Shown here in pieces: positions 3,325-36,569 of a stretch of 64,000 bases of DNA (within the stretch, counting starts at the first letter, position 1; each line of letters begins with the position of its first letter). Source of the stretch: Antedon mediterranea (Eukaryota > Echinodermata > Crinoidea > Comatulida > Antedonidae); NCBI RefSeq assembly GCF_964355755.1, contig NC_092676.1, forward strand, positions 18,334,288 through 18,398,287. Reading direction: 5' to 3'. A program made the position numbers and the translations under genes. The notes beneath the pieces are model-generated. The model was not told where the DNA came from. It worked only from the letters and a program-made list of their open reading frames with translations, and made no database searches.

Positions 3325-4371
3325 AGTACTGTAGCTTATAAGAGAGTCCCACTTGAGAATTACTTTATACTCAATATTATGTCAGAGTAGGGCAAACATC
3401 TGACAAATTACTCCTCGACGCAAAGCTACTCCACAGTAGTTAAAATCACAATCCTGTTGGTGAAGTACCCCCGATGATGTTAGGAGAATATAATATCTCC
3501 TGCTTACTTGGGATTGATCTAACCCTAGCGGTCAGTGCAAGCTTGTTGGTCTAGAGGAATGATTGCTAGTGATCTGGAAGTCGTGGGTTCAAGTCCCACC
3601 CGAGAATAACTTGAAAATACAATGCTCAAATACAGTACTTCTCACGGGAAACTGAAGGAACGAACTAATCCAATATGTGATAGACAATGCATGCCATAGA
3701 CGTTGGTTTGACCTTCAGTAGGTTGTTCATTGAATTGCATCACCTGTAGCATCAGTATTTTATTTTTAGTTGCCTTATAATTTAGTGTTGCGCTACAAGT
3801 AATGTGCATGTGTGTACACAGCACACATGTATACACAGACGACTGTTGTAGTTTGGGTTTTTTAATTAGACTACAATTGTAAAATCACCTTTACTCTTAT
3901 GAAATTAGGATTTTGGAGATAAATCCTGCCAAAGACATAGAGATTGATTCAACTACTGTGCCAGAATCCATATGTCAAGTTGATTGACATGTGTTATGAA
4001 ATATCTTTCAATTTACACACACATTTATAAACCTAATGCAGTGGACTGTATATTATAAGTCATGAACATAGCTTTGGGAAGTATTTGGTAGATTTAAAAA
4101 GATGAACTTAAGACATGATCTACAAGTCCCTGTCAATGTTTGTCTACCTTTGCTCTGGCAGTGTGTGTTAACATTTCTATATCTGTTCCACAATCTTTGT
4201 TTCAACATAGCTGGTGCTGCAAACGTTGGTTTAATGAGAAACTAAAATCTGCTACTCATACTTCATTTAACAGTGTTGTTTCTGCATTTCATACATTGGC
4301 CTCAACATTTTTTGTGTGTTAATTTTGGTATAATGGACTATATACTTTTTTTTATATTAAATCTCTCTGTA
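3325..4371. other. 3' flank of the IQ-motif gene, no further gene seen
   Basis: The stretch holds the presumed 3' UTR, the tRNA-like fragment at 3545-3607 and AT-rich DNA. The open frames here are short and have no splice partners. I saw no AATAAA close to the stop codon, so the 3' end of the transcript is not placed. Confidence 0.4.
3545..3607 (+). repeat. tRNA-Pro-like fragment or SINE head
   Basis: The first part, GTTGGTCTAGAGGAATGATT, matches the acceptor/D-arm layout of eukaryotic tRNA-Pro (GTTGGTCTAGGGGTATGATT). The B box GGGTTCAAGTCCCACCCGAG is well formed. The anticodon arm between them does not pair, so this is a tRNA pseudogene or SINE head rather than a working tRNA. Confidence 0.5.
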
Positions 4372-8300: not shown

Positions 8301-11300
8301 GTTTATTGGGAATGCACACTTTTCATCAAAATACTCCTTCACCAGTAGTTCTGGTGGTAAATAAGTACTCTTGGATAAAGACACATCTAAGATTTCAATG
8401 TACCAAGTTCATCTGTCGGAATAATATGGAGTTACTGGTCATCCCAGCCCTGTCTCCATCATTTCGACAGAAGAACGAGTGCTATTTGGTGCCAGCAGTG
8501 GCTATGAGCACTCACTGCCCAAAGCCAGGGGCCCCAGAGCATGAGAAGCCTCAATGCAACTACCTAGTGTTGGCGGGCCCCTCAGGAGTGCAAAACCAGG
8601 GGCCTTTGCCACATGCGCTATGCCACTGGGTGGCAGCTCAACATGAAAGGACCCTTAGGGCAGTTGTGTATGTTTGTCAACTGCTCTTTGAGATGATTAT
8701 TGAATAAATCAATCCATTATTTATCATGAAAATGAAATGGTAAACAGAGAATGGATCAATCCAGTAAAAAGTTTGAATTTATAGTTTATGTGAACCTACC
8801 TGCAAATATTTGTCTGTCGTCATCACCTATATCTGGAAATCTATCAATGTATTTTTGTGGAGCCTGTAATATCTGATCTGGGTTACCACTGTGGACAGCT
8901 TGGTAAGGTAGATATAGGAACAAAGGCTGTGAGGTGCATTGATGGTAGTATGAAAGAGGAAAATGAGATTATAGAGATTCAATCAGGAGGAACAAAGGCT
9001 GTGAGGTGCATAATGAGATTAGAGATTCAATCAGGGAGGAAAAAAGGCTGTGAGGTGCATTGATGGTAGTATGAAAGAGGAGCATGACCTTAAAGAGTTT
9101 GATTACCAGAATGTCATTCCTTTTGGAAGCTCATGCCAGCCAAAGCACTGCAAACCAAGAGGTGTCTACTGGGCTACCCTTTTTAAAATGATTTTATGTG
9201 ATGGCCGTTTATGAAAATGGAATAAAAATATTCAGTACAAGAAATTTCATCAGGATGTTTAAGCAGAGAGCAATCCTGAATTGCGTCTGAACAATTGAAC
9301 ATTTTATGGGAATAACAAAAAAAGCAACCAAACACTTCTGCTTTGTTTACACTATCAAACTAGTGTGATGTGCCCAAATATAGTAGTGGTATGACATCAT
9401 TGTATCCATTTTATATGGGCACATCACATTTCTTGTCACATAAGTTTGATAGTGTAGACAGAGCTTTACTGACCTTTGTTGAATTGACATGATCCCTAAT
9501 AATGTTTTCCGCTTGCTCTGTAAATATTTCAGTAGAATATTGGCCGAACACAGGCTTGTAAACTCTGCCATTTTTATGAAAATCAAACCCCCATAGCTGT
9601 TAAAATTCAACAATATTTATTATTATAAATTCTTGCACATGTAAACATAAAAACAAGTTAGAATTACTGTTGTACCATCCTCAGTCAGGGGCGGATTCAA
9701 TGTATGATCAAATTAATAATAATAATAATAATAAACAGTATTTATATAGCGCCTAATGGATCACTGACCCCTCTAGGTGCTTTACATAGGACCTTAACAA
9801 ATTAGAATATGACAATCTGTCCGATTCTTCGCAAAACTCTGTATTGCTAAGCAATTTCGCAAGTTATAATGCAAAAGATAGGACATGAAATTTAAGTGTA
9901 ATAGATAAACTGAATGCTAGAAAAGATTTTGGTCAACCAGCTCATTGCAGATTATGTAGAAAAAAAGTTTAAAATCAGAAGAATCATACCAATTTGTTGT
10001 CGGCATGAAGATCTGAAGTGTGCTCAAAATAATCCTCCTTTCCAAGGTAGTATCCGAAGGCTGTATCAAACCCTCGTTGCATTGGCAAGTACTCCTCTGC
10101 AAAATGACCTAGGTGCCACTACGAGAACGAGAATAAAGATGTTATATCATCTGCCAATTTTGTTTACACTGATGACAACATGGTTTCTGATAAGCTGCTT
10201 TAGAAAGGTTCAAGGAACTAGATGGAGATTTGGGTTGAATGTGGCGTTAATTTGTCATTTCAGATAAAATATCAGATAAAGAGAATTGCATTTATATTAT
10301 GTGTTATGAACAATCAAGAAAGATTACTACTACTAGCATAACAACCAAAACTTCAAGCCCTTCTCAACTTAGAAACCCTCGTTGCATTAAACTTTACTAG
10401 TAGCAGTACAAACCTTTAAACAATATTATTGTACAAACTTATTTTGGTTAAACCATCCGACACATTTTACGTACAAAGTGGGTTAAAGTTTATGCATCAG
10501 CCAATTGGTTTACCTTTCCCACTATGTGGTTTGAATACCCAAGTGTGCGCAAGTGCTCTGCAATGGTGGTCTCATTAGGTCTCAGACCATAGGGATTTGC
10601 TCCTCCAATTGTTCCATGAAACAGGCCTGGAAAAAATTGTTCAACATATGATAGTATTATTCACCTTACTACTCTACCTATCTGGTGTTATTATGGGGTA
10701 TGGTTATTATTACCCTATAATAATTGTGTAACTCACTAAACAGAAAATATTTTTCGCCTATAATAAAATCGTAATATATATTATTATTACAGCATAATTT
10801 TTATACAGTGTACAAACGCATATTAAGACCAAGCCTTCAGGAGAATGGAACCAATGAGGTTGGGCTTGGGGCATGTGCTTTCCTCTTTTTAAAGCTCAGG
10901 TACAGGCATGAATTTTAAAAATAATATTTGGTTAATTGTACATAAATCAAATATTTGTAGCAAAAATCAAGACAAAAAAACATGAATTTCCCTTAATATG
11001 TTCAAATACTAAATTTTGCAAAATGCTTCCATAAACACCAGAAAGACTTTTTTCAGTAGTTAGGTAGTTAACCTAATGTAATAACATGTCTGGTGACTCC
11101 CTAGAAGGTGAAAAAAGATGGTGGATATACGGTGGATAATTTTTGCTATAGCATGAAAATAAAAATCTGAAGTTGAATAAAAATACTAGAAATGTATATA
11201 TTCAAGTTATATTACCTATATTTAGTCATCTGATTACATTTTTTACCACAATGTTTATTATTCATAGCTTTTTAAAATGCCTCTCTATTTACAAAATTTG

Positions 11301-12582
11301 TGTACAAAAGAATAGAGATTTTACTGTGTAATTTGAACTGATAAGAAAGTGCTTATTTTCAACAAGCTCGTGTAACAGCACAAATAAAATCCCAAAAATT
11401 ATGAAACATAGGGGAAACTAGATCGATAATTATTGGAATGTATGATCAATAGAAATTTTTATGAACTACTTTTTAGTATCTATCAATACAATGTTTAGCA
11501 CTCCCCTGTGAAAAATCCCTGATCATCCCCTGGACTAGCTTTCTGTATTACCATGTTTTATTTTGGTACGAATTGTGAATGTTTTCATCATTGTTCTCAA
11601 CACACACTTACCGGTGTGGATTGGATGCCGACCCGTCAGAAGAGCGCTACGAGTTGGTGTGCAGATGTGCTGTACATAGTAGTTGGACAGGATGACACCT
11701 TCATACGCCAACTGGTCAATATTTGGTGTTGGAATCTGACCAGAACCATGGAAACTAACATCATTCCATCCCTAGATAAAAGGTTTAAAAACTTTCAAAT
11801 TTTTTTTTTATTTTGAACAAATGAATTGAAATGTGATCTTTTGTTTCATGTAAATCATTTCTCCTTTTACTTATCTATTTGAAAAATATACTGTATTATT
11901 TTTCCAACACCTATTACCATTTACCAATTATCGACAGAAAAGAAGAAAAATTTGTAATTTCTGTGCGCTATACATTTATTTATTTATAACACTAGGTGTG
12001 GATGCTGCAGGAAATTTCACTTGGATTAGAATCTTTAGTAAAAAATAGATTGGAATACCAATACTTACTAAATCATCGGCCACAATTAGAATAATGTGAG
12101 GTTGTTTGTTATTTGCTTTTACAGAACCTAAAATTGTAAACAATAACAAACATAATAACATCTTCAGCGACTGAAAAAGAAAAGCATATATCTTGGAATT
12201 AGTTGATACAATACACACGCACTTCTTTCTATGTTAAAAATATGGTTTTGTAATTGAACACCATGGAGTTGAATAAGGCTTCCTTTCGGTTTGGACTTAA
12301 TTTTAATATTTTTAATATTTAGTATCATGCAACCTGTAGTGTAGCCTAGTGTTGCAAGGATTAATATGTTATACAATGCTAAATTGGTGCGTGACATACA
12401 TTCCACTCTATCACACACAGCTAGCTCACAACTAACAACAAAGTAGGAGGGGTACAAAAACAAATAAATCAATGCATCATGCTACAAACAACTAAAGAGC
12501 TCCACAGACAGAACATCCACTTCGTTTTGTAAAAATCTATTTCTGTGACACTTATGAAAACAGTTAATTGATTACTTACCAT
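5330..12582 (-). CDS. arylsulfatase B-like sulfatase, gene A
   Basis: Eleven coding exons on the minus strand: 12582-12580 (ATG only), 12170-12069, 11771-11612, 10626-10514, 10118-9990, 9596-9474, 8926-8800, 8064-7710, 7015-6864, 6526-6380 and 5490-5330. They give about 523 aa. A hydrophobic signal peptide ([15 protein letters not shown]) is followed by VADDL with the metal-binding Asp pair. Next comes [11 protein letters not shown], the C-x-P-x-R motif whose Cys (about residue 72) is converted to formylglycine. GK-WHLG holds the active-site Lys and His, and TTDNGGP the second metal site. Order and spacing fit the ARSB/ARSI/ARSJ group, which removes sulfate from sulfated glycans in lysosomes or outside the cell. 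Exon lengths largely match gene B. If translation instead starts at the Met at 12161, the protein is 519 aa. Confidence 0.9.
5646..6221. repeat. ~95-102-bp minisatellite in last intron of sulfatase A
   Basis: The phrase CCTAGGAACTAG (or CCTAAG once) starts near 5649, 5751, 5900, 5999, 6094 and 6191, each followed by ATAGGTCATTTGGAAGTGCT and a CCAGTCAATGACACAATAG block. The 149-base step after 5751 reflects an extra partial unit. Period is about 95-102 bp, six copies. Confidence 0.9.
7336..7456. mobile_element. degenerate MITE family 2 copy
   Basis: It starts GATTCCCACTCGCAAGAG and ends CGTCCTTGTGTTACACCCAA before GTGAGGAACCA, resembling the TGGTTCCCACTAG...GGGAACCA ends of family 2 with the usual GACGCAACG/CGTTACGTC inner blocks decayed. 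It lies in a sulfatase A intron. Confidence 0.45.
7535..7707. mobile_element. MITE family 1, copy 3, abutting exon 7 splice donor of sulfatase A
   Basis: It runs from TAAGCTCTGTCTACACCATC to CAAACTAGTTTGACAGTTTA and contains a triplicated TATCACTACCA-ATTTGGGC block. Its right end runs into the minus-strand 5' splice site at 7709-7704, so the intron begins within a few bases of the element. Confidence 0.75.
8496..8628. mobile_element. hAT-type MITE, copy 1
   Basis: It is bounded by CAGTGG at the left and GCCACTG at the right and flanked by 8-bp near-direct repeats, GGTGCCAG (8488-8495) and GGTGGCAG (8629-8636). The inner CTATGAGCACTCACTG and AACCAGGGGCCT blocks match the copy at 25620-25714. 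An 8-bp target duplication with CAGTG termini is typical of hAT elements. It has no coding capacity. Confidence 0.75.
8922..9080. repeat. tandem duplication carrying three copies of the exon 6 splice acceptor
   Basis: AAAGGCTGTGAGGTGCAT occurs at 8922, 8994 and 9043, and TGATGGTAGTATGAAAGAGG at 8940 and 9061. Read on the minus strand, each AAAGGCTGTGAGG copy is a CCTCACAG/CCTTT acceptor. Only the copy at 8926 joins to the conserved PLFLYLP exon. Confidence 0.85.
9341..9468. mobile_element. MITE family 1, copy 4, abutting exon 5 splice donor of sulfatase A
   Basis: It runs from CTTTGTTTACACTATCAAAC to TGATAGTGTAGACAGAGCTT and has the GATGTGCCC and GGGCACATCACAT inner blocks. The minus-strand exon ends at 9474 and its donor occupies 9473-9468, so the element meets the splice site. 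Confidence 0.8.
9712..9790. repeat. (ATA)n plus TTTATATAGCGCC repeat
   Basis: A run of ATA triplets is followed by AACAGTATTTATATAGCGCC and GGTGCTTTACATAGG. This ATA run with a TATATAGCGCC block is a dispersed-repeat signature in marine invertebrate genomes (from general knowledge); the element class is not fixed here. Confidence 0.5.
12580..12582 (-). other. start codon of sulfatase A split from the rest by an intron
   Basis: On the minus strand ATG is followed at once by GTAAGT. The next exon begins after a CTTTTTCAG acceptor at 12171 with TCG CTG AAG ATG, so ATG joins in frame as M-S-L-K-M-L-L. The intron is 409 bases. The alternative start is the Met at 12161. Confidence 0.55.
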
Positions 12583-13119: not shown

Positions 13120-16100
13120 AGGTAAAATATACTGTGTTTTACAATAACCAATTTGGTTAGAGTAAAACACAATGATAAAGAATAGGAAACATTTAATAAT
13201 ATGATAAATGACATTTACATAGCAATTTATCACTGTGTTTTACTATAACCAATTTGGTTAGAGTAAAACACAATGATAAAGAATAGGAAACGTTTAATAA
13301 TATGATAAATGTCATTACATAGCAATTTATCACTGTGTTTTACTATAACTAATTTGGTTAGAGTAAAACACAATGATATAGAATAGGAAACATTTAATAA
13401 TATGATAAATGACATTTACATAGCAATTTAGCACTGTGTTTTACTATAACCAATTTGGTTACAGTAAAACACAATGATAAAGAATAGGAAACATTTAATA
13501 ATATGATATATGACATTCACATAGCAATTTAGCACTGTGTTTTACTATAACCAATTTGGTTAAAGTAAAACACAATGATAAAGAATAGGAAACATTTAAT
13601 AATATGATAAATGACATTTACATAGCAATTTAGCACTGTGTTTTACTATAACCAATTTGGTTAAAGTAAAGCAGAATGATAAAGAATAGGAATTTAATAA
13701 TATGATATATGACATTTACATAGCAATTTAGCACTGTGTTTTACTATAACCAATTTGGTTAGAGTAAAACACAATGATAAAGAATAGGAAACATTTAATA
13801 ATAATGATTATTTACATAGCAATTTAGCACTGTGTTTTACTATAACCAATTTGGTTATAGTAAAACACAATGATATAGAATAGGAAACATTTAATAATAT
13901 GATAAATGACATTTACATAGCAATTTATCACTGTGTTTTACTATAACCAATTTGGTTATGGTAAAGCACAATGATATAGAATAGGAAACATTTAATAATA
14001 TTATGATAAATGACATTTACATAGCAATTTAGCACTGTGTTTTACTATAACCAATTTGGTTATGGTAAAGCACAATGATATAGAATAGGAAACATTCAAT
14101 AATATGATAAATGACATTTACATAGCAATTTAGCACTGTGTTTTACTATAACCAATTTGGTTAGAGTAAAACATAATGATAAAGAATAGAAAACATTTAA
14201 TAATTTGATAAATGACATTCACATAGCAATTTAGCACTGTGTTTTACTATAACCAATTTGGTTATGGTAAAGCACAATGATATAGAATAGGAAACATTTA
14301 ATAATAATGATTATTTACATAGCAATTTAGCACTGTGTTTTACTATAACCAATTTGATTATGGTAAAACACAATGATAAAGAATAGGAAACATTTAATAA
14401 TAATGATTATTTACATAGCAATTTAGCACAATGTTTTACTATAACCAATTTGGTTAGAGTAAAACACAATGATAAAGAATAGGAAACATTTAATAATAAT
14501 GATTATTTACATAGCAATTTAGCACAATGTTTTACTATAACCAATTTGATTAGAGTAAAACACAATGATATAGAATAGGAACATTTAATAACATGATAAA
14601 TGACATTCACATAGAAATTTAGCACTGTGTTTTACTATAACCAATTTGATTAGAGTAAAGCACAATGATAAAGAATAGGAAACATTTAATAATATGATAA
14701 ATGACATTTACATAGCAATTTAGCACTGTGTTTTACTATAACCAATTTGATTAGAGTAAAGCACAATGATAAAGAATAGGAAACATTTAATAATATGATA
14801 AATGACATTTACATAGCAATTTAGCACTGTGTTTTACTATAAACAATTTGGTTAAAGTAAAGCAGAATGATAAAGAATAGGAATTTAATAATATGATAAA
14901 TGACATTTACATAGCAATTTAGCACTGTGTTTTACTATAACCAATTTGGTTAGAGTAAAACACAATGATAAAGAATAGGAAACATTTAATAATATGATAT
15001 ATGACATTCACATAGCAATTTAGCATTGTGTTTTACTATAACCAATTTGGTTAGAGTAAAACACAATGATATAGAATAGGAAACATTTAATAATTTGATA
15101 AATGACATTTACATAGCAATTTAGCACTGTGTTTTACTATAACCAATTTGGTTAAAGTAAAACACAATGATAAAGAATAGGAAACATTTAATAATATGAT
15201 AAATGACATTTACATAGCAATTTAGCACTGTGTTTTACTATAACCAATTTGGTTAAAGTAAAGCAGAATGATAAAGAATAGGAATTTAATAATATGATAT
15301 ATGACATTTACATAGCAATTTAGCACTGTGTTTTGCTATAACCAATTTGGTTAGAGTAAAACACAATGATAAAGAATAGGAAACATTTAATAATAATGAT
15401 TATTTACATAGCAATTTAGCACTGTGTTTTACTATAACCAATTTGGTTATAGTAAAACACAATGATATAGAATAGGAAACATTTAATAATATGATAAATG
15501 ACATTTACATAGCAATGTATCACTGTGTTTTACTATAACCAATTTGGTTATGGTAAAGCACAATGATATAGAATAGGAAACATTTAATAATATGATAAAT
15601 GACATTTACATAGCAATTTAGCACTGTGTTTTACTATAACCAATTTGGTTATGGTAAAGCACAATGATATAGAATAGGAAACATTCAATAATATGATAAA
15701 TGACTTACATAGCAATTTAGCACTGTGTTTTACTATAAACAATTTGGTTAAAGTAAAACACAATGATAAAGAATATGAAACATTTAATAATTTGATAAAT
15801 GACATTCACATAGCAATTTAGCACTGTGTTTTACTATAACCAATTTGGTTATGGTAAAGCACAATGATATAGAATAGGAAACATTTAATAGTAGTTATGA
15901 TAAATGACATTTACATAGCAATTTAGCACTGTGTTTTACTATAACCAATTTGGTTATGGTAAAGCACAATGATATAGAATAGGAAACATTTAATAATAAT
16001 GATTATTTACATAGCAATTTAGCACTGTGTTTTACTATAACCAATTTGGTTATGGTAAAGCACAATGATATAGAATAGGAAACATTTAATAATATGATAA

Positions 16101-17040
16101 ATGACTTACATAGCAATTTAGCACTGTGTTTTACTATAAACAATTTGGTTAAAGTAAAACACAATGATATAGAATATGAAACATTTAATAATTTGATAAA
16201 TGACATTCACATAGCAATTTAGCACTGTGTTTTACTATAACCAATTTGGTTATGGTAAAGCACAATGATATAGAATAGGAAACATTTAATAATAGTTATG
16301 ATAAATGACATTTACATAGCAATTTAGCACTGTGTTTTACTATAACCAATTTGGTTATGGTAAAGCACAATGATATAGAATAGGAAACATTTAATAATAA
16401 TGATTATTTACATAGCAATTTAGCACTGTGTTTTACTATAACCAATTTGATTATGGTAAAACACAATGATAAAGAATAGGAAACATTTAATAATAATGAT
16501 TATTTACATAGCAATTTAGCACAATGTTTTACTATAACCAATTTGGTTAGAGTAAAACACAATGATAAAGAATAGGAAACATTTAATAATAATGATTATT
16601 TACATAGCAATTTAGCACAATGTTTTACTATAACCAATTTGATTAGAGTAAAACACAATGATATAGAATAGGAACATTTAATAACATGATAAATGACATT
16701 CACATAGAAATTTAGCACTGTGTTTTACTATAACCAATTTGATTAGAGTAAAGCACAATGATAAAGAATAGGAAACATTTAATAATATGATAAATGACAT
16801 TTACATAGTAATTTATCACTGTGTTTTACTATAACCAATTTGGTTAGAGTAAAACATTTTAACTATGATAAATGATATTTAGCACTGTGCTGGATACAGT
16901 AAAACACAAATAAAGAATAGGAAACATATAATAATATGATACATTTACATACAAATTTAGTATTGTGTTTTACTATAGCCAATTTGGTTACAGTAAAACA
17001 CAATGATAATGAAACATTTATTATATGATGTTATTTACAT
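13120..17040 (+). repeat. satellite array, left arm (~100-bp monomer)
   Basis: About 37 regular monomers run to 16860, with decayed units to about 17040. CACTG starts at 13231, 13331, 13432, 13533 and 13634, giving a 100-101-bp period, with 98-bp deletion variants. Each monomer holds a palindrome, TGTTTTACTATAACCAA then TTGGTTAGAGTAAAACA, followed by AATGATAAAGAATAGGAAAC and an AT-rich tail. Open frames here, such as the minus-strand ones at 15584-15805 and 16003-16206, are repeat by-products. Confidence 0.95.
14280..16790. repeat. higher-order repeats inside the left satellite array
   Basis: The block around 14280-14720 recurs nearly unchanged at about 16370-16790, sharing the rare GCACAATGTTTTAC and TTTGATTATGG variants. 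The block at 15692-15806 recurs at 16094-16208, about 402 bases on. Blocks near 13660 and 15258 share the GTAAAGCAGAATGAT variant. Groups of monomers have been copied together. Confidence 0.7.
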
Positions 17041-20774: not shown

Positions 20775-23115
20775 ATTGGTATAGTAAAACACAGTGCTAG
20801 CAATGTATCATATTATTAAATGTTTCCTATTCTTTATCATTGTGTTTTACTCTAACCAAATTGGTTATACAGTAGTAAAACACAGTGCTAAATTGCTATG
20901 TAAATGTAATTTATTATATTATTAAATGTTTCCTATTCTATATCATTGTGTTTTACTCTAACCAAATTGGTTATAGTAAAACACAGTGCTAAATTGCTAT
21001 GTAAATGTAATTTATCATATTATTAAATGTTTCTTATTCTTTATCATTGTGTTTTACTATAACCAAATTGGTTATAGTAAAACACAGTGCTAAATTGCTA
21101 TGTAAATGTAATTTATTATATTATTAAATGTTTCCTATTCTATATCATTGTGTTTTACTTTAACCAAATTGGTTATAGTAAAACACAGTGCTAAATTGCT
21201 ATGTAAATGTTATATATCATATTATTAAATGTTTCCTATTCTATATCATTCTGCTTTACTTTAACCAAATTGGTTATAGTAAAACACAGTGCTAAATTGC
21301 TATGTAAATGTAATTTATTATATTATTAAATATTTCCTATTCTTTATCATTGTGTTTTACTCTAACCAAATTGGTTATAGTAAAACACAGTGCTAAATTG
21401 CTATGTAAATGTCATTTATCATATTATTAAATGTTTCCTATTCTTTATCATTGTGTTTTACTATAACCAAATTGGTTATAGTAAAACACAGTGCTAAATT
21501 GCTATGTAAATGTCATTTATCATATTATTAAATTCCTATTCTTTATCATTCTGCTTTACTTTAATCAAATTGGTATAGTAAAACACAGTGCTAAATTGCT
21601 ATGTAAATGTCATTTATCATGTTATTAAATGTTTCCTATTCTATATCATTGTGTTTTACTCTAATCAAATTGGTATAGTAAAACACAGTGCTAAATTGCT
21701 ATGTGAATGTCATTTATCATATTTTTAAATGTTTCCTATTCTTTATCATTGTGTTTAACTCTAACCAAATTGGTTATAGTAAAACACAGTGCTAAATTGC
21801 TATGTAAATGTTATATATCATATTATTAAATTCCTATTCTTTATCATTGTGTTTTACTCTAACCAAATTGGTTATAGTAAAACACAGTGCTAAATTGCTA
21901 TGTAAATGTTATATATCATATTATTAAATTCCTATTCTATATAATTGTGTTTTACTTTAACCAAATTGGTTATAGTAAAACACAGTGCTAAATTGCTATG
22001 TAAATGTTATATATCATATTATTAAATGTTTCCTATTCTTTATCATTGTGTTTTACTCTAACCAAATTGGTTATAGTAAAACACAGTGCTAAATTGCTAT
22101 GTAAATGTCATTTATCATGTTATTAAATGTTTCTTATTCTTTATCATTGTGTTTTACTCTAACCAAATTGGTTATAGTAAAACACAGTGCTAAATTGCTA
22201 TGTAAATGTAATTTATCATATTATTAAATGTTTCCTATTCTATATCATTGTGCTTTACCATAACCAAATTGGTATAGTAAAACACAGTGCTAAATTGCTA
22301 TGTGAATGTCATTTATCATATTTTTAAATGTTTCCTATTCTTTATCATTGTGTTTAACTCTAACCAAATTGGTTATAGTAAAACACAGTGCTAAATTGCT
22401 ATGTAAATGTTATATATCATATTATTAAATTCCTATTCTTTATCATTGTGTTTTACTCTAACCAAATTGGTTATACAGTAGTAAAACACAGTGCTAAATT
22501 GCTATGTGAATGTCATTTATCAAATTATTAAATGTTTTCTATTCTTTATCATTATTTTTTACTCTAACCAAATTGGTTATAGTAAAACACAGTGCTAAAT
22601 TGCTATGTAAATGTTATATATCATATTATTAAATTCCTATTCTATATCATTGTGTTTTACTTTAACCAAATTGGTTATAGTAAAACACAGTGCTAAATTG
22701 CTATGTAAATGTTATATATCATATTATTAAATGTTTCCTATTCTTTATCATTGTGTTTTACTCTAACCAAATTGGTTATAGTAAAACACAGTGCTAAATT
22801 GCTATGTAAATGTCATTTATCATGTTATTAAATGTTTCTTATTCTTTATCATTGTGTTTTACTCTAACCAAATTGGTTATAGTAAAACACAGTGCTAAAT
22901 TGCTATGTAAATGTAATTTATCATATTATTAAATGTTTCCTATTCTTTATCATTGTGTTTTACTCTAACCAAATTGGTTATAATTTATTTAATTTCATTT
23001 CAAAAGACATTTACCTAAATTGCTATTTAAATGTCATTTATCAAATTATTAAATGTTTCCTATTATTTATCTGGTTATATAGTAAAACACTGTGCTAAAT
23101 TGCTATTGTATAAGG
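20775..23115 (-). repeat. satellite array, right arm (inverted copy of the left arm)
   Basis: About 22-23 monomers read AAATTGCTATGTAAATGT, TGTTTCCTATTCTTTATCAT, TGTGTTTTACTCTAACCAAA, TTGGTTATAGTAAAACACAG: the reverse complement of the left-arm monomer. Period is about 95-100 bp, with variants lacking a short GTTT segment. The last regular unit stops near 22983; a decayed one continues to about 23110. Confidence 0.95.
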
Positions 23116-23973: not shown

Positions 23974-26900
23974 ATGAAAATGTTGACCACCAGTGAAGGA
24001 CGCTTATTCTCAGTATTTCTAACTGTTTTTTGTGTGTGGATTGTCACTGCCCAGAAACAACCAAATATTATATTTATTGTTGCTGATGACTTGGTAAAGT
24101 GCAAAATATTCTTTAAAAGCATGTCTAGTCAAGGGTCGGATGCAAGAATTTTGTATATATATAATTTAATGTTAGCTATAATTTAAAAAGGGAAAACTTG
24201 CACCTCTAGTGCTACCCAGCCACTGAATCCGTCTCTGGTAGTTATGTAATATACATGCCCACCCATCCTGCCCCACCTCCTCCCTCCAAAGTAAAAAAAT
24301 TAAAAAAAATTATTTATCAAATTTTCCTGTAAAATGAATGTATTTTATTTAATGTTCAGGTACATTCAACAACATTATACACATTTTAAAACCCTTTCTA
24401 CTGATATTCCAATTTTATTTAAAACATACTATTGTCCCTTGTTTATTAAATAGCACTAAAGGCTTTATGTTATCAACATTGAACACATCCACTGTCATAT
24501 TTTATTCAAAACATACTATTGTCTCTTGTTTATTAAATAGCACTAAAGGCTTTATGTTATCAACATTGAACACATCCACTGTCATATTTTTTTCTTTTTC
24601 ACATAAATGAGTATCAAATTTGTCACTTTAGGGATGGAATGATGTGAGTTTCCATGGCTCAGAACAGATTCCAACACCAAATATTGATAAGTTAGCATAC
24701 GAAGGAGTTATTCTCTTCAATTACTATGTGCAGCCAATTTGTACCCCAACACGTAGTGCAATAATGACAGGCAGACATCCTATACATACAGGTAATTTAT
24801 AATACAAAATGATTTATTGTGGTAAGAAAATTCTAATCTTAGGAATAATTTCCTTTTTAAGTTCTGTCTACACTATCTGTGATGTGCCCATGGATATGAA
24901 GATGTCATATCACTACCATGTTTGGGCATATCACTACCATATCACTACTCTTTTTGTCAAACTAGTTTGAAAGTGAGACAATTTAGACATGGTTTTTTTT
25001 TTTAAATTAATTTAGGCATCAAATACCAAAACCGGCATCATACTAAACCATAATAATTGATTGTTTATTTTGTACAGTAAACAGTAATGATTGGTTTATT
25101 TTATTTGAGCTTTAAAAAAGTTTTTATATTGTACTAAAATAAATCCAAAAAGATTTTTTCAGAAAAAAAGGCCAATTCTTAGTAGCCGCAATGCAAAACA
25201 CTACTTTTGTTAATATTTGTTCTGGTATTTGTAGTGTGGTATTTTAAGCGGAACCAGGTCCATTGATGATATTTATTTTATGGTAGTCTTATATCTTGAC
25301 AGGATTGTATCATAACGTTATTATGGGTCAAGAGCCATTTGGCCTCAGACCAAATGAGACCACTGTTGCTCAGTATCTTCATGACTTAAATTATTCCACA
25401 GTAATGATTGGAAAGGTGTGTTATTACTAATTAACTAAGTTGTGTTTAATTACCAAGTTTGAGGAAGTCTTTAGTCCTTTCATTTATAACAATCATGATC
25501 TGCAACAACAGTTAAAAAGTTGATGTTTCTGCTAAGGTACTCAAGTGTTATTCTGTAGAATGTTAAGCATCAGTTTACATTCAACTGGGTGAGGAGTGTT
25601 GGACATTGATCTTGAGATCCAGTGGCGTAACGCAGAGGCCCCTGGTTTAGGAACCCTAAGTGGCCCTCCAACTCTGGGTTTAGCCAGTGAGCGCTCATAG
25701 CCGTTACGCCACTGTTGAGATCATGAGTTTGAATGCTTGTCGCTTTGCTTGTATTATTGAGAAGCCCATAATTACAATACAATACAAAAATGTAATCTGT
25801 AAACTGACAGAGTGTTCTAGATGGCATATAATAAATAATGCAGATTCAAAATAAGCGGCCCTTCGAGTTGTTAATGAAGGCTTGGCTGACCATTCCAACA
25901 TTATCGAGAACTTGTTTGAATATTGTGTTTGTATTTCGATTACGCTTCGAGCATTTTTCATCTTGGAAGAATAGCTTTTTCGTCATCTGATCCGATTGGA
26001 AGGTTTGGAAGAGGAATGGGGTTCTGCATCAGCAACATTTTTTGCATCACGACATAATTATTATACATGTTTAGAAACAATATGAAATCTTACAAAATGT
26101 GTAGAAATAAATAAAAATAATAACTTCAGTTCATCAATAGTAGTCTGTTTTGACTTTACCCTTTGACCCGTAAAATTGTGCTTTTCAGGCTTATTTCATA
26201 GTGTAATAACGGCTGCCCAGCCAGATGGACTTAGGCCAAATGAGACCACTATCCCTGAACACTTACGCCAACTTGGTTATGAAAACCACATGGTTGGCAA
26301 GGTAGGTTTTTATAAAAAGATAATGTTTATTCCAATTAAAAAGTAAATTATAAAATATAATTACAACAAAAATAAATATGACAATCACAAGCAGTCACCC
26401 TAATAAAAAGAAAGGATACATTATATACTGTACAGTATATCAAAAAATTGAATATATTGTAATGTTTTTGGCAGACGTCTGTCGCGAATGAATATTCATC
26501 ACAGAAGCCTCGAACACAATACAAAAATTAAATACATTAAAAATAAATTCATTACTATAAATTATAATAGATATTCAATTATGTTCAATCGGGAAAAGAC
26601 AAAAAGCTCAAACATGTATTTTTCTTTGAAAACTCAATAGACAGTACAACAATGACTTCATTAAGAAATACCTTTTAAGAGAAAAAAAAATGTACAGTAT
26701 GATGTTCATGGAAAGTGCAAACTCTAATGCTCAAATGGACTCTTTTTGTATGTCAACAGTGGCATTTAGGTCATTTTGCCAAAGAATATCTCCCAATAAA
26801 TCGAGGATTTGATTCAAGTTTTGGATATTACCTAGGAAAAGAGGACTATTGGGAACACACCTCCTCATTCAACTTCTCCAAGGTATAATATTGAGGGATT

Positions 26901-29900
26901 TGATTTGCAACAGCCGGTAACTAAAATATTCCTTGCATAAGTCAGCTGGGTTAAAAAACAAGACAAGCATCTGAAATAAAATTGTTTAAATTTGACAAAC
27001 AAAATTCAAAACAAATTTGAGGAATATGACAGAAATTCCATATTATTTTAAGGAATTTGTATTCGTTTGAATGCCATTTACATATGTAAACTAGTCGCTA
27101 TTTTTGCTGGTAGAAGAAAGATGTATAAATATCTTAATACTAGATGGCGTGTGAAGTGAATAATATTTGTTCACATAATTTACATATAATACTGAAACAG
27201 TTTGGCTGTCAGTGATATAATAGTAAATACTTGGCTTTTGCAAATCAACTTCTCTCTTGTGTTTTTAAATTTATGCATGACTGTTTCCTATATAATAATT
27301 ATATTTTCCTTCCCTTTCTTTTAATTATTTTTTTCATTGGTTCATTTGTTTACCTTTTTCAATTATTTTATTGATTCATCATATTAATTGTATAATTTTA
27401 CCAGACATAAATTCTCCACCTGTGGGAGGTTAATACCTCATTTTTGCGATCACATAAAATTTACCAAACTACAGCTAGAGATTTGAATGTTTAATTCTAT
27501 ATTAGCATTTTTTATGATTATAGATATTTTTGTTTTGATGGAGAGGGATGTCTAATCTCTAAAAGTTGTCATCTTTTCCATACTGCTTCTTTAGCTCTGT
27601 CTACACTATCAAACTTTATGTGACAAAAAAATGTGATATGTCATATCACTACCATATTTGGGCCATCACACTTTTTTTTGTCAAACTAGTTTAGTAGTGT
27701 AGAGACAGAGCTTTGATATAAACAGTTTTCTGCATGGTTTTTGTAAGTTCTAAATCAATACACAGCATGTATTTACCAGAGGTTTTAGTGCTGCTTCAAG
27801 TGCCTATCTTGGTTTTACCAGTTGGTGAAATAGATTTTTGAAGTCCAGAATAGAAAAGTGTATGATATCTAGTTGGCCAGTTTCTTCTAATGTACAGGAT
27901 AATCCCTACTTTGTATCAAAGGTTTACTATAGTATTATTAGTTAAACTGTCTTTACTATAAGAAATGGAGACCCACTTGATAGTTTGATTTAGTTCGCTT
28001 TTGGGAATCCGGTCTCTCTCTATTGTTTGTTTTTTTTTGTTATAATTATGTGAGACGAAATAAATGAAATGAAATGAAATGTAATATTGCACACATGACC
28101 AACAACTTAACATCTCATCTGGAGATAATGAATACTGCTGCAGCCTATTCATGAATTGTTTCAATTGTCTAAGTAGCATTGTAGTCTTCAATTATAATTT
28201 GTTGTATTGTTTATTTTTATAGCATGGTGTATTTTGATGTGAAGTATAGTATTTAGATGTGCGACACATAATGTGTGTGGTCGATTCTTAATAAGGTACT
28301 TGTCTATTAATCCCAGTGTTCAAGGGTTACTTCTTGTCTATTAATCCCAGTGTTCAAGGGTTACTTCTTGTCAAATACCAGGATTTTTGTTATACTGTAT
28401 GGTTATGTTGAGTATCATGTATATTGCCACCTTTTAGTTTTTGAGACCTTAGCAGAACATCCTAATTTTATTTTGCTAAATTTAAATTGAAAAATGCATT
28501 TAGAATGACATGAAATGACTAAAGACTTCTAAAAATAATTTTAATAATATCACTATAAAATATTCATTGTATTAATATTTTATGAACAATTTAATTTAAT
28601 ATTGCAGATATTGTCATTTTTTAACATTACACAGTAACTTAAACTTTTTAAAAATAATAGCCAGTTTAAAGCTTTAATTGATCCAAACATAAACTATTGC
28701 AAAACTATCCATTGATTTTATCATCAATCATTTGTCATGTTCAGTGGCATTTAGGATTCTTTGCCAAAGAGTACACGCCCACGTATCGTGGCTTTGACTA
28801 CCATTTGGGCTACTACACGGGTAAAGAAGATTACTTTGTGCATACATCAAATGAACACATTGCAGGAGATAAAGTGAGTATGTTATGCTGTCAAAACCTG
28901 GTTATCCTCATAGTACAGTTGGCTCTGTACCTGAAGTATTCTAGGCTAAAATTGTGTTCTGTGGTCTTATGTTTCAAGCAATATGGAGCTATATTGTGTA
29001 TAGGGAGAGTTTGATATCAGTGCCATCTTGTCATCATGGAGGATAGACAAAATATGTAATATTCTAATTGTCTCTTCCTTTAAAGGATGTTAAGCTGTTG
29101 TTTCTGTGTATATAAATACATTATAAAAGAAATTGGTGTCTCATAGTGTATCGATAATGGTATTAGCAGAGGACTGATTTGAATTCTCTTGGTTTTATTT
29201 TTATATTAACACTTTATGATATACATGGTTATTTGGTTCACTAATATAAAATGAGTTGGATGTATTCTAATTCACTGCCATTATAGGTGCTCTTGTCTGC
29301 CTGCAGAGGCCCTAATTGTTGTTGATGGATTTAACTTTAAGTCTAAATTGTTTGTATGTATGTAATCACAGATAACAACTTTAATATTACCTTTATTTAT
29401 ACTGTATGAGTTCAATACTGTTACGGTCAAATTTATAGCAAATCCCTGACAAATACTGTATATAACACTCTGTTCTATACATTACTGTACTTTCTGAATT
29501 TAGTTTTGTCTGTTTATGCTTACTCATGTTTTTTAGTTCTTCTTCTATACATATTTTATTGTATTGCTTTTTTTATTTGATCGTTTTTATTGTGCATGCC
29601 GCATTCTAAATATAACAAACAATTTAGTAACACTGTTGATGTTAATTTGCCAGCATGCATTCTGGGGATATGACTTCCATAAGAATGGTGAAGTGTACAA
29701 ACCTGAATTTGGACAGTATTCTACTGAGCTCTACGCAGATGCAGCTATAAATATTTTGAAGAACCATGACACTTCAAAGGTAGAGTTTGAACACATTTCA
29801 AAGTGTTTGCTAATTAAATTAATAAATAACCAAATTATCTTGTAAAGCTTTCTAAAAAAAAGTAAAGATGAAGTCTCTCTATTTTGCCATTACTATCCAT

Positions 29901-32845
29901 TGTCCAGGTTGTGAGAATATAGCATCTTCTAATACAATATGCTCTATTTTAAAGAAGCATCGGCAAAAACAGTATCTCTATGTACAACAGTAATGATTAA
30001 AATTAGAAAGACTATAGTTTTAATTTTTGAAAACTCTTTTTAGCCACTGTTCTTGTATTTGCCATTCCAAGCTGTTCATAGTGCCAATGAAGATGATCCA
30101 TTACAGGCTCCTCAGAAGTATATCGATAGATTCCCATACATACAAAATAAGCAAAGAAAAGTATATGCTGGTAAGTCAAGTAGCAATTAAGCTGACTTGT
30201 AATACAGAGATGGTGTTACATGATGCCCCATAATACATAAGAAAACTTTATTATCTCCAACAATCCGAAGAAATTACAAGCACTTGCCATCAATCATACT
30301 GAAAGAAAATGACCCAATTTTTTATGGAAGTTGAGAATGTGCTGTTTTATTTTTGCCTAAGTAAATACTCACAGAAGATATTTTTTTTTCAATAGCAATG
30401 GTTTCGGCACTTGATGATGCTGTTGGAAATGTCACTGCCAGTTTAAAAGAGACCGGACTCTACAATAATTCAGTAATCTTTTTCACGACTGACAACGGCG
30501 GCCCCGTTTGTGGGTTCGACTACAACTGTGCAAGTAACTTCCCTCTACGTGGCGTCAAAGCAACTTTGTGGGAGGGAGGTGTTCGCGGTGTTGGTTTGGT
30601 TAATAGTCCTTTCTTAAAGAAACCTGGTAGAATTTCTGAAGACCTTGTGCATGTCTGTGACTGGTTGCCAACGATTTATCACTTGGCTGGTGGAGATACA
30701 AGTAAACTAAAGAACTTGGATGGATACAACCAGTGGGAAACTATATCAAGGTTTGTACACAAACACATCAGCTCAACACAGACCTTACAAACAACCCGTG
30801 ATGGCCAAATAAGTCTGGTATTCCAGCAGGTCAGGATTTCAGAATGAATGGCCGATATGCATGTGTGGAACCTTGGGAGATTTTTATGTTCAGGGCCAGC
30901 TGAAACTCTAGAAACCTTTGACCTATATTTTCAGTTTCATTTTTTATTTTCAATATAAACAAGTGTCATGAATATAAGCAAAAATGGAAGGATGACCAAA
31001 AAAGAGCAAAGTCTATAGTGGCAAATTGTCTGAAACAACAATATACTTTATGTCTGAAGTATCAGTTGCTTGGCAAACAGTACACACTCACAGTATCTGA
31101 AAGTCCTTTTGTTTTGCAAATAATCTACAGTATGTTATGTTGTTTAAATACTACTTTTCTACTTGTTACTACTGCATCATCACTTATCTTTACATGCAGA
31201 AACTACAATATTTTTATACAGTATCTTGGATATTGGAACAATTTTATTTATGTTCATATATTTATATTCATGTTTCATTTACTAAATTAAAATACTGTAA
31301 CAAAACGTACATTTTGTTACTTATTTATTCAATTTTGGGTACCTCTTTGCTAAATTGAACAATCTTTTCTGATATTTGTGATAATTTGATGACTTTTTAA
31401 ATTTTAAATTGATGAATGTGTGTGTTTATATAGTGGTGTGACAAGCCCAAGAAAAGAGGTCATTCACAATATTGATACAGTTGGCAACTTCTCAGCCATC
31501 AGGATGGGAGACTATAAGCTTGTTGTCAATAGCAACTACAATGGATCATGGGATGGCTGGTATCCAACTAAAGACGAGGATGAAGGTACAGTATCTTATT
31601 TTTTATTTTTCTTATTCATTTTTTTAAAATTTATTTATTAATTCGGTGGGGCTTCTAAAGAGACAATGAAGCTCTATAGCTCGTAGAAGTCCCAGCTTAA
31701 AATTTACAACTAAAATAATATCAATGATGTTTCTGGACGGTCATTGTAAGTCTGTGTCCACTTACTGGCATATATTCATAGCAGATATCTACCTGTGTGT
31801 GTTTGTACTTTATACCATCTTTTCCTAATTACTTGTAAATAGTTCTTGTTCATCTTTGTAATTAATTATTAAAAATAAAATATTCTGCTGTGTGTTTTCT
31901 CATATTATTGAATTTTCTGATTGGAATATGTACCTTAGTGAATGTTGACATTTCCTCTTTCAAACTAATTTTTTTCAGTCAGAATAGTAATAATACAGTA
32001 ATTAAATTTTCTTTCCGCCAGACTTTGTAATACCCGTAAATGTAAACCCGCAAGCAGCTGTAGTGCACTGTCCACCAAAGCCACCAGATGTAGAGACAAA
32101 CTGTCAGCCATTCAAAGCACCATGTTTGTTCAATATTAGAAATGATGCTTGTGAATATATCAACATTGCTGCGCAACATCCAGGTAGGCAAAAGAATACA
32201 ATTATTTGTGATTTTGATACCATTAAAGTTTAAAATGTCAAACGATTTATGTGATTTTTCCAAATGATGTCTGATTTTCCTTGCTGGTGCCATATTTGTT
32301 TCAGTAGTGACAGCTTGGAGATTGTCGATTATATTTTGTCTGCAAGCCAAATCAGAGTTGAAACACATTTAACATAGAAGTTTTGTTTAAAAAACCTATT
32401 TTGTTTTTCATTAAAAAGGTGATCTTTTTAAGATTTTAGCCTAATTATTTGTTTAAAGTTTGGAACTTTAGTTTGAAGTGACTGTAAGAAATCTGAATTG
32501 TAAAAACAAAAATTGTAATCACATTACTTTTGGTAACATAATAATAATGATCTTTTTTAGAAAAAAATTATTTTAATATAATATAAAAAAAATTGATTTT
32601 GATTTTCCCAAGTCTGATTTTCCTTGCTGGTGCCATGTTTGTTTCAATAACAGCTTCAAGATTGTAGATACAATATATTTTGTCTTTTTGTAGACATTGT
32701 TTCCAAACTGCAAGCCAGGATAGCTGAACTTCTACCAACAGTGGTACCAGCAGCTAACAAGCCTGAAGATGTCAATGCTGATCCCAGATTACATGGAGGA
32801 AACTGGGTTCCTTGGATAAATCTAACACAATTTAACGAAGTGTAA
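23974..32845 (+). CDS. arylsulfatase B-like sulfatase, gene B, with duplicated exons 3 and 4
   Basis: Exons: 23974-24093, 24632-24791, 3a 25303-25415 or 3b 26189-26301, 4a 26760-26882 and/or 4b 28745-28873, 29654-29779, 30044-30170, 30396-30750, 31434-31585, 32022-32183 and 32694-32845 (TAA). With one exon 3 and 4b the product is 531 aa. It has a hydrophobic leader ([16 protein letters not shown]), [16 protein letters not shown] (formylglycine Cys about residue 77), a GK at the end of either exon 3 joined to WHLG of either exon 4, and TTDNGGP. A C-terminal [12 protein letters not shown] block with paired Cys is shared with gene A. Most exon lengths equal those of gene A (160, 113, 129, 127, 355, 152), so the two are paralogues. 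Role as for ARSB-type sulfatases: glycan sulfate ester hydrolysis, with formylglycine formation by a SUMF1-type enzyme. Whether it is lysosomal or secreted is not decided by the sequence. Confidence 0.9.
24412..24590. repeat. ~87-bp tandem duplication in intron 1 of sulfatase B
   Basis: Two nearly identical copies of a segment holding AACATACTATTGTCCCTTGT and CACATCCACTGTCATATTTT lie just before the exon 2 acceptor at 24631. Confidence 0.9.
24861..24992. mobile_element. MITE family 1, copy 5
   Basis: TTCTGTCTACACTATCTGTG at the left, GATGTGCCC and TATCACTACCAT blocks inside, CAAACTAGTTTGAAAGTG at the right; the terminal AAAGCTC has decayed. It lies in the intron after exon 2 of sulfatase B. 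Confidence 0.7.
25303..25415 (+). other. sulfatase B alternative exon 3a
   Basis: 113 bases, entered with one carried base and leaving in phase 0. It encodes [20 protein letters not shown] and ends in MIGK, where Lys is the expected active-site residue. It is less like the gene A exon (about 21 of 38 residues by eye) than exon 3b is. Confidence 0.85.
25620..25714. mobile_element. hAT-type MITE, copy 2, with perfect target duplication
   Basis: Perfect 13-bp inverted termini, CAGTGGCGTAACG and CGTTACGCCACTG, are flanked by the identical 8-bp repeat TTGAGATC (25612-25619 and 25715-25722). 95 bp long. It sits in the intron between exons 3a and 3b of sulfatase B. Confidence 0.95.
26189..26301 (+). 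other. sulfatase B alternative exon 3b
   Basis: 113 bases in the same phase as 3a, encoding [20 protein letters not shown] and ending in MVGK. About 28 of 38 residues match gene A exon 3. If spliced after 3a it reads GCT TAT TTC ATA GTG TAA, an immediate stop. Confidence 0.9.
26760..26882 (+). other. sulfatase B alternative exon 4a
   Basis: 123 bases, phase 0 at both ends, beginning [18 protein letters not shown] and ending in SSFNFSK. The His of WHLG is the expected active-site residue. It is closer to the gene A exon than 4b is, but two codons shorter. Confidence 0.85.
27592..27714. mobile_element. MITE family 1, copy 6
   Basis: AGCTCTGTCTACACTATCAA and TAGTGTAGAGACAGAGCTTT form the ends, with inner TATCACTACCATATTTGGGC. 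It lies between exons 4a and 4b of sulfatase B. Confidence 0.85.
28301..28372. repeat. 34-bp direct tandem duplication
   Basis: Two perfect copies of a unit containing TCCCAGTGTTCAAGGGTTAC, in the intron between exons 4a and 4b. Confidence 0.9.
28745..28873 (+). other. sulfatase B alternative exon 4b
   Basis: 129 bases, phase 0 at both ends and the same length as gene A exon 4. It begins [18 protein letters not shown] and ends in HIAGDK. It differs from 4a at FF for HF and at the YHLGYYTG stretch, near the active site. Confidence 0.85.
32258..32690. repeat. ~347-bp-spaced duplicated intron segment
   Basis: The phrase TCTGATTTTCCTTGCTGGTG, followed by GCCAT-TTTGTTTCA and a CAGCTT-AGATTGT block, occurs near 32269 and again near 32613 in the last intron of sulfatase B. 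The first copy contains a TTTCAG that could act as a decoy acceptor. Confidence 0.7.
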
Positions 32846-33147: not shown

Positions 33148-33262
33148 CTCTGTCTGCACTATAAAACTAGTATGATGTGTCCAAATATGGTAGTGATATG
33201 ACATTATCATGTCTATATATGGGCACATCACATATACTTTGATAGTGTAAACAGAGCTTTAG
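33148..33262. mobile_element. MITE family 1, copy 7
   Basis: AAAGCTCTGTCTGCACTATA and TTTGATAGTGTAAACAGAGC form the ends, with inner GATGTGTCCAAATATGGTAG and GGGCACATCACAT. It lies just downstream of sulfatase B. Confidence 0.85.
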
Positions 33263-34070
33263 TCAATATGACATGTCAAGTACACTTTATGATACTGTGG
33301 CATTGTCTCTTTCTCTGTGCCGGTATGGGGGACAGGTGTATCTTTGATTATTTCTCTTGTGGAGTCTGCTTGAATAGTGGAATAAAAAGCTCCGGTTACA
33401 AGATAAGAACAGAATTGGAAAGTACATAAATTTTCCTTTCTACAATAGGGTTACTTTTTAAAAATTGTTTTTTAAAATTCATTTATTGTTCATTTAAATT
33501 ATAGTTACCATGATTATAAAATCAACGTATAAATTGCAATATTAAACCATGTAATAGAGTTAGAATACTTGGTTACTAAACACAATATACCATGCTAATG
33601 TTAATAGTTCTTTCGTCAACTTCCTTTAAACGATACTAGGCTACCTATATCATTCTAAACGGACAAAATACATCTTTTGATTTCGGCCAAGTGTCATGTA
33701 TTTAGGTATTCTATGCACCAGCTTGCCATCCGTTGCATGCAACAGTTCCTTGTATATTGTACACTACAATCGGACAAAAAGATCTCCAGCTAATCTCCAA
33801 CAACTCATTTGCATATTTTTGAATTTATTTATAGAAATGTACAATTTAATCTTACATTATTACTGGACATAATATATATCTATTTTTCTACTGTAGAAGA
33901 AGGGTTTTTCTACAAGATTTGTATTCATCATTTAATGTTCAATAATTTTTAATTATGATTTTTTTTTTGTCAACAATAAAATCGATTGAAAAAAAGAAAT
34001 TTAAGTAATTTATCGTCAGTGATTACTTCATTGATGCGTAGTGGCCTAACAATAAGAACCACATCGTCTT
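33263..34070. other. AT-rich intergenic stretch, nothing recognised
   Basis: No long open frame, tRNA or clear repeat was seen between the MITE downstream of sulfatase B and the GACC-repeat element. Confidence 0.4.
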
Positions 34071-36431: not shown

Positions 36432-36569
36432 AGATATACTGTGTATAATTATCATATTGCGTATACAGTACTTTTCACCATAAAATAAAAAAAAAAAGGT
36501 TTCGCCCGGGCTCGAACCAGGTACCTTCTGCGTGTTAAGCAAACGTGATAACCACTACGCAAAGAAGCC
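36432..36569 (-). repeat. tRNA-Val(AAC)-headed SINE-like element, copy 2
   Basis: The 72-nt head (36569-36498, minus strand) folds as tRNA-Val: GTAGTGGTTATCAC D arm, TTTGC-TTAACAC-GCAGA anticodon arm with AAC, and a TTCGAGC T loop. The acceptor stem has two mismatches. The tail matches copy 1, with GTATACGCAATATGATAATT. A dispersed tRNA-derived repeat is likelier than a functional tRNA gene. Confidence 0.65.

Follow-up and report, generated by a model that had tools for sequence, protein, structure and literature searches.

In a stretch of 64,000 nucleotides (nt) from the crinoid Antedon mediterranea (contig NC_092676.1, positions 18,334,288 to 18,398,287; here called the window, whose own numbering is used below), two sulfatase genes of the arylsulfatase B (ARSB) type are arranged head to head, with gene A on the reverse and gene B on the forward strand. 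Gene B carries two versions of exon 3 followed by two versions of exon 4, and we consider it probable that these form two adjacent clusters of mutually exclusive exons with up to four isoforms. One of two homologous exons would be picked in each cluster, such that a single gene could give rise to up to four enzymes. All isoforms would have the same metal site, formylglycine and catalytic Lys and His, as well as the remainder of the catalytic core, and would differ within a stretch of about 80 residues around the catalytic Lys-Trp-His.

Structure and coding capacity of gene B

Gene B is complete and extends from 23974 to 32845 on the forward strand. Its exon set consists of exons 1, 2, 3a, 3b, 4a, 4b, and 5 to 10, i.e., further exons are present on both sides of the duplicated pairs, two upstream and six downstream. 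Whichever exon 3 (3a or 3b) is joined to whichever exon 4 (4a or 4b), the frame runs to a common stop ending at 32845 and encodes 529 amino acids with 4a or 531 with 4b. Exons 3a (25303-25415) and 3b (26189-26301) both measure 113 nt and have the catalytic Lys as their last residue, while exons 4a (26760-26882, 123 nt) and 4b (28745-28873, 129 nt) both start with WHLG, including the catalytic His. The four exons are supported by splice sites, frame, homology and a selection test, with a splice matrix in the case of 4b. AG precedes and GT follows each of them, and all four are open. The introns between them comprise 773 nt (3a-3b), 458 nt (3b-4a), and 1862 nt (4a-4b). The initial annotation of this DNA had already described both pairs as intact; they are found at the sites it claimed and span exactly 25303-28873.

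The product of gene B is predicted to be a secreted or lysosomal ARSB-type sulfatase of the S1 family, where secretion is deduced from a signal peptide recognized by eye. The Pfam Sulfatase model scores 188-195.5 bits in all four isoforms against a cut-off of 25 (first 425-427 amino acids of each), and PF01663 also exceeds its cut-off in the gene B isoforms (27.6-34.4 bits versus 23). Among solved structures, the best match of the 3b-4a form is human ARSB (N-acetylgalactosamine-4-sulfatase, 1FSU; expectation value (E) 1e-114), and the catalytic residues of the two are the same. Ten catalytic positions common to ARSB, GALNS, ARSA, and ARSG are given in Table 3 of PMC7404199, and the 3b-4a form aligned to 1FSU agrees in ten out of ten. 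CTPTR of gene B represents the C-x-P-x-R formylglycine motif; 1FSU itself prints Ala at the formylglycine position. Both exons 3 end with GK and both exons 4 begin with WHLG: each exon 3 has retained the catalytic Lys and each exon 4 the catalytic His. The alignment equates them with Lys145 and His147 of ARSB, both listed in Table 3 of PMC7404199, in agreement with the catalytic role that the initial annotation had assigned to the GK end and the WHLG start. The junction of exons 3 and 4 falls between these two residues. Human ARSB is not known to have duplicated exons.

With respect to the reading frame, exon 2 leaves one carried G, and either exon 3 brings back phase 0, as the length of 113 nt confirms. 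Exons 4a and 4b are of phase 0-0; entry and exit phases are alike within each exon pair. Joining 3a and 3b results in GCT TAT TTC ATA GTG TAA, i.e., AYFIV and an immediate stop, and using neither terminates the frame at codon 111, whichever exon 4 is read. The frame hence permits exactly one copy of exon 3 per transcript. On these three points the initial annotation was correct. Each exon 3 would be used alone; transcripts with both or neither would have a truncated reading frame and probably be degraded. For exon 4, the predicted in-frame inclusion of 4a together with 4b is likewise correct, and double skipping is equally in frame: when one exon 3 is used, both exons 4 may be in, or both out. 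Therefore, the frame does not impose a single exon 4, whose choice would be under regulation other than the reading frame. It is very improbable that the gene makes regular use of this freedom, either by including both exons 4 (an in-frame WHLG repeat) or by skipping both (a His-less binding or decoy form). The frame is kept in both cases, but neither arrangement is found in 20 paralog stretches or in the 1FSU alignment, and either the loss of the His or an additional WHLG stretch of some 40 residues next to the active site would be expected to wreck fold or activity.

The remaining exons of gene B, all on the forward strand, were placed by translation, in part together with the 1FSU alignment. 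Exon 1 (23974-24093) provides the start codon, the probable signal peptide and the metal-binding Asp pair (ADD motif aligned to 1FSU), and exon 2 (24632-24791) provides the CTPTR motif. Downstream of the duplicated pairs follow exon 5 (29654-29779), exon 6 (30044-30170) with a His aligned to ARSB His242, exon 7 (30396-30750) with residues aligned to ARSB Asp300, Asn301, and Lys318, exon 8 (31434-31585), exon 9 (32022-32183), and exon 10 (32694-32845), which includes the stop codon. A near-perfect tandem duplication of 87 base pairs (bp) is located in intron 1 (24412-24594).

Divergence, selection and origin of the copies

Exons 3a and 3b are identical in 20 of 38 amino acids and in 60.5% of their nucleotides; for 4a and 4b the values are 25 of 36 amino acids over the ungapped part (25 of 43 columns end to end) and 63.0%. 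Exons 3a and 3b differ in 18 residues, which correspond to ARSB positions 110, 112, 115-118, 120, and eleven positions in 129-143, and GLRPNETT is unchanged amid the differing positions. Extra glycosylation sequons occur in 3a (Asn-Tyr-Ser) and in 4a (Asn-Phe-Ser). The initial annotation had spoken of swapping sequence around the catalytic pocket. The sequence around Lys and His indeed differs between the copies; the catalytic residues themselves are constant.

Gene A was modelled as an inverted paralog of 519 amino acids plus stop (5330-12161, reverse strand; start codon at 12161, stop ending at 5330). It has a single exon 3 (A3, 10626-10514) and a single exon 4 (A4, 10118-9990), as had been proposed. 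We scanned the six-frame translation of the window with profiles of both exons and considered the best 20 rows per model, the exon-4 model comprising 22 positions. Exons 3a, 3b, and A3 all appear with E <1e-19 and the next match listed has E 2.1, while 4a, 4b, and A4 all appear with E <1e-12, followed by E 1.3. No further or decayed copy of exon 3 or 4 in the 64-kb window is among the matches listed. Compared with gene A, 3b (28/38 identical amino acids versus 21/38 for 3a) and 4a (29/36 versus 25/36 for 4b) are the nearer copies. In its last intron, gene A carries a 96-bp minisatellite with 4.3 copies (5816-6229).

Two other explanations of the exon pairs were considered. A haplotype or assembly duplication is ruled out, since the copies differ at 37-40% of nucleotides and no other near-identical genome match to the duplicated exons is among the best candidates scored, with 3a and its flanks also searched by DNA. 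Recent gene conversion is disfavoured: several estimates of synonymous distance between exon-3 or exon-4 pairs failed or were undefined, and every computable one is about 1.0 or more, the lowest being 0.996 (YN00, 4a/A4).

Selection was assessed by a codon model per exon pair with equal branch lengths, in which a ratio of nonsynonymous to synonymous change (omega) of 0.5 is about the expectation if one of two copies had drifted freely since the duplication. Synonymous distances amount to 1.8 or more for 3a/3b and are not computable or above 5 for 4a/4b. For 3a/3b, omega is 0.12 with an upper 95% limit of 0.40, and omega 0.5 is rejected (p=0.015). For 4a/4b, omega is approximately 0, a fit at the edge (omega 0, length unbounded) of which only the upper limit of 0.12 is meaningful, and omega 0.5 is rejected with p=9e-7. 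Letting one copy evolve neutrally worsens the fit by 5.0-6.1 (3a/3b) and 23.7-25.7 (4a/4b) units of twice the log-likelihood. Measured against gene A, the upper limits of omega are 0.16 for 3a, 0.30 for 3b, 0.14 for 4a, and 0.18 for 4b. Branch-specific tests in three-sequence trees, with lengths at bounds or near zero, had a mixed outcome: an omega of 1 is rejected for 3a (p=0.0014), A3 (0.023), and 4a (0.016), but not for 3b, 4b, and A4. At 0.5 changes per site, 1.1-3.0% of the trials for an exon preserved both frame and AG/GT under neutral simulation (no indels, 4000 trials each); at 1.0, 0.15-0.53% did. The pairwise comparisons indicate that both copies of each exon are old and held by long-term purifying selection. 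The low omega despite near-saturated synonymous divergence disfavours a long disuse of either copy.

This bears on the alternative that one copy per pair is a relic and that the gene is now spliced with fixed exons 3 and 4, most plausibly 3b-4a, which we regard as unlikely. It would be in line with the single pair of gene A, with the nearness of 3b and 4a to that gene, and with the poor splice-site scores of 4b reported below. However, omega lies below 0.5 for both pairs despite the high synonymous divergence, no stop, frameshift or lost AG/GT is seen in any of the four copies, and the chance of an intact frame with AG/GT is low in the neutral simulation. Mutually exclusive use of both pairs is the preferred reading.

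Concerning the origin of the pairs, single- and joined-exon trees were computed with 9 of 20 fetched paralogs plus human ARSB as outgroup, the other 11 being left out. Neither exon 3 nor exon 4 alone resolves the order of duplication. A quick tree of exon 3 with ten paralogs and human ARSB places 3a outside 3b and A3 with a weak support of 0.53. For the joined exons, a gene-B-specific duplication is rejected by the approximately unbiased test (p=0.030 for 3a with 4b, p=0.027 for 3a with 4a), but not by the Kishino-Hasegawa or Shimodaira-Hasegawa tests. It may be that the duplications are older than the A/B split and that gene A then lost the extra exons; we regard this as a lead and not as a result.

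The order 3a-3b-4a-4b could stem from two single-exon duplications, or from a block of exons 3 and 4 set inside intron 3. A block in this position, i.e., 3a (3b 4a) 4b, or tandem blocks could have left the gene with two fixed cassettes, 3a-4b and 3b-4a, in place of four freely combined forms. Such cassettes are compatible with mutually exclusive exons, and we consider them possible, though somewhat doubtful. The observed order is what a 3-4 block inside intron 3 would produce, the inner pair 3b-4a is gene-A-like, and its intron of 458 nt is close in size to that of gene A, which has 395 nt. On the other hand, neither an exon-4 relic between 3a and 3b nor an exon-3 relic between 4a and 4b is among the matches listed, and the introns of genes A and B are without convincing similarity (best match 32 bases, E 0.004). 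Moreover, the same order would arise just as readily from two separate duplications of single exons, and the origin does not dictate the splicing.

Splice sites, exon choice and the active-site surround

Splice sites were scored by a small local matrix, for which genes A and B supplied 16 constitutive introns. The donor of 3b scores above all 16 constitutive donors. At the other end of the scale, 4b has the lowest scores of the four exons, its acceptor falling below 15 of the 16 acceptors and its donor below 15 of the 16 donors. The splice sites, which the initial annotation had called good for all four exons, are thus uneven: AG/GT is present throughout and the 3b donor scores highest, but both sites of 4b score low. 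Because of its low acceptor and donor scores, 4b, if used, may be the regulated choice, or else it may be little used. As to the means of exclusion, a too-short intron is ruled out by the 773 nt between 3a and 3b and the 1862 nt between 4a and 4b, and there is no sign of a mixing of U2 and U12 sites, all sites being ordinary GT-AG by eye.

Alternative use of both pairs, as predicted from the DNA, is likely, but several points weigh against two clusters of mutually exclusive exons. The frame does not enforce single use of exon 4, and the weakness of the 4b sites is of the same tendency. A crude scan in one species for intron-intron pairing of the docking/selector type, covering 10 intron pairs with 6-12 shuffles each, yielded nothing convincing: one pair out of ten lies beyond all its shuffles. 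For this pair, the 3a-3b intron against the 4a-4b intron, the value is -309.3 compared with a shuffle mean of -276.3 (standard deviation 14.3), from only 6 shuffles and with 10 pairs looked at. Furthermore, the exons are short, the selection test of 3a/3b is only modestly significant, and that of 4a/4b is an edge fit. In the three-sequence trees, with their lengths at bounds or near zero, a branch-specific omega of 1 is not rejected for 3b (p=0.66), 4b (0.77), and A4 (0.19). A recently abandoned copy would still look intact. Finally, in the human duplicated exons surveyed in PMC9741552, the overlap with ligand-binding residues is lower than expected and these residues are mostly preserved, a pattern that argues against a major alteration of the pocket.

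A switch of the substrate pocket is possible. In S1 sulfatases, the sulfate subsite is invariant, while the carbohydrate-binding regions vary and drive specificity (PMC10154612). Rather than making an inactive form, the swap in gene B could adjust the enzyme's stability, or its preference for a substrate or pH, to the tissue or stage. In its most elaborate version, a combinatorial splice switch of substrate preference, the two exon choices would re-dress the sugar-binding surround in four ways; the choice would date from the time of the A/B split or earlier, and gene A would have kept only the 3b-4a-like state. This version is tentative, and we are inclined to doubt it. More generally, a gene with two old versions of the exons flanking the catalytic Lys-Trp-His would allow one catalytic core to be compared with four different surrounds, and the residues that set the substrate preference of sulfatases would become directly testable.

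Sulfatase loci, repeats and known systems

Sulfatases usually diversify by gene duplication, and many sulfatase loci are present in this genome (354-Mb assembly, 18 contigs). A genome protein search lists 54 matches, 8 of them inside the window; the matches are exon pieces, several of which may share one gene. From the 46 matches outside the window, 20 were examined, and in all 20 the GK-W junction is uninterrupted, i.e., without an intron between Lys and Trp. Among the loci examined, this intron is confined to genes A and B, where it makes the double swap possible.

Some of the other loci have peculiarities of their own. A paralog with Gln replacing the catalytic His after GKW (GKWQLG) is located at G000:C5:9680650-9681150 (L014). 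An ARSB-like sulfatase at G000:C1:29478000-29483000 (L021) is encoded as a single open frame of 1196 amino acids (422-4012 of that locus, reverse strand); it has a hydrophobic segment at the N-terminus, and about 600 residues form a tail enriched in Lys, Asn, and Ser (domains by eye). Two sulfatase exons with identical translation lie 2.2 Mb apart (G000:C6:24591224 and C6:26821733), and a series of sulfatase matches is spaced by about 18 kb (G000:C7:5908036, 5926086, and 5944041). The identical translations and the regular spacing suggest recent sulfatase gene duplication at both places.

Between genes A and B, two satellite arrays with a unit of 101 bp extend over 13131-16856 (about 37 copies) and 20806-22982 (about 22 copies), and their consensus units are mutual reverse complements by eye. 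Short elements resembling miniature inverted-repeat transposable elements, variants of GCTCTGTCTACACTATCAAAC with inverted ends (by eye), are found at about 24860-24970, 27590-27710, 9380-9470, 7560-7700, and 33150-33270, i.e., within introns of both genes as well as downstream of gene B. In gene B, exons 3a to 4a are bracketed by two such copies, one in intron 2 and the other in the 4a-4b intron, which are 72% alike. A marginal transfer RNA (tRNA) match at 36497-36569 on the reverse strand (29.8 bits versus a cut-off of 29) is preceded, at a distance of about 290 bases, by a stretch that resembles it by eye, and has the appearance of a tRNA-derived repeat. Farther downstream of gene B (46038-59480), long open stretches resemble, by eye, a gene for a P-loop/NACHT and WD-repeat protein.

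Mutually exclusive exons have precedents in several enzymes, reportedly including CYP4F3. The prediction criteria in PMC3228551 are neighbouring internal exons, similar length (by default a difference of at most 20 amino acids), splice pattern, frame and homology. The pairs of gene B show these features with lengths of 113/113 and 123/129 nt, AG/GT borders, concordant phases, homology and an internal position. On the Drosophila X chromosome, according to the same source, such features occur in 0.56% (90/16180) of exons that are not mutually exclusive.

Four systems lend themselves to comparison. In nematode and helminth coq-2 (COQ-2a/COQ-2e), two mutually exclusive internal exons of equal length (134 nt each) exchange a part of the enzyme core close to the substrate site in an otherwise constant protein, and the choice changes the product made (PMC7434440). 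Unlike gene B, coq-2 has one cluster, belongs to a different enzyme family and is supported by RNA sequencing and genetics. The mutually exclusive gate-domain exons of human ACSL6 and ACSL1 likewise swap a short motif near the catalytic site with conservation of key residues, but these acyl-CoA synthetases have one pair, their transcripts were isolated and forms without both exons occur (PMC1543647). The exon pair of human KHK exchanges a homologous region beside the ligand site and keeps the catalytic Arg108 in both isoforms; it differs from gene B in being a single pair, annotated in human, of a ketohexokinase (PMC9741552). The muscle myosin heavy chain gene of Daphnia, DapMhc1, differs in encoding a motor protein and in having nine clusters (PMC3228551). 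No sulfatase with mutually exclusive or tandem duplicated exons is among the literature matches listed from a limited collection. The kind of exon arrangement is hence already known, as coq-2 and ACSL6 illustrate, and the sulfatase case would be new within the literature searched. If our reading of gene B holds true, sulfatases would join those enzyme families in which the range of molecules accepted by the active site is altered through splicing instead of gene number.

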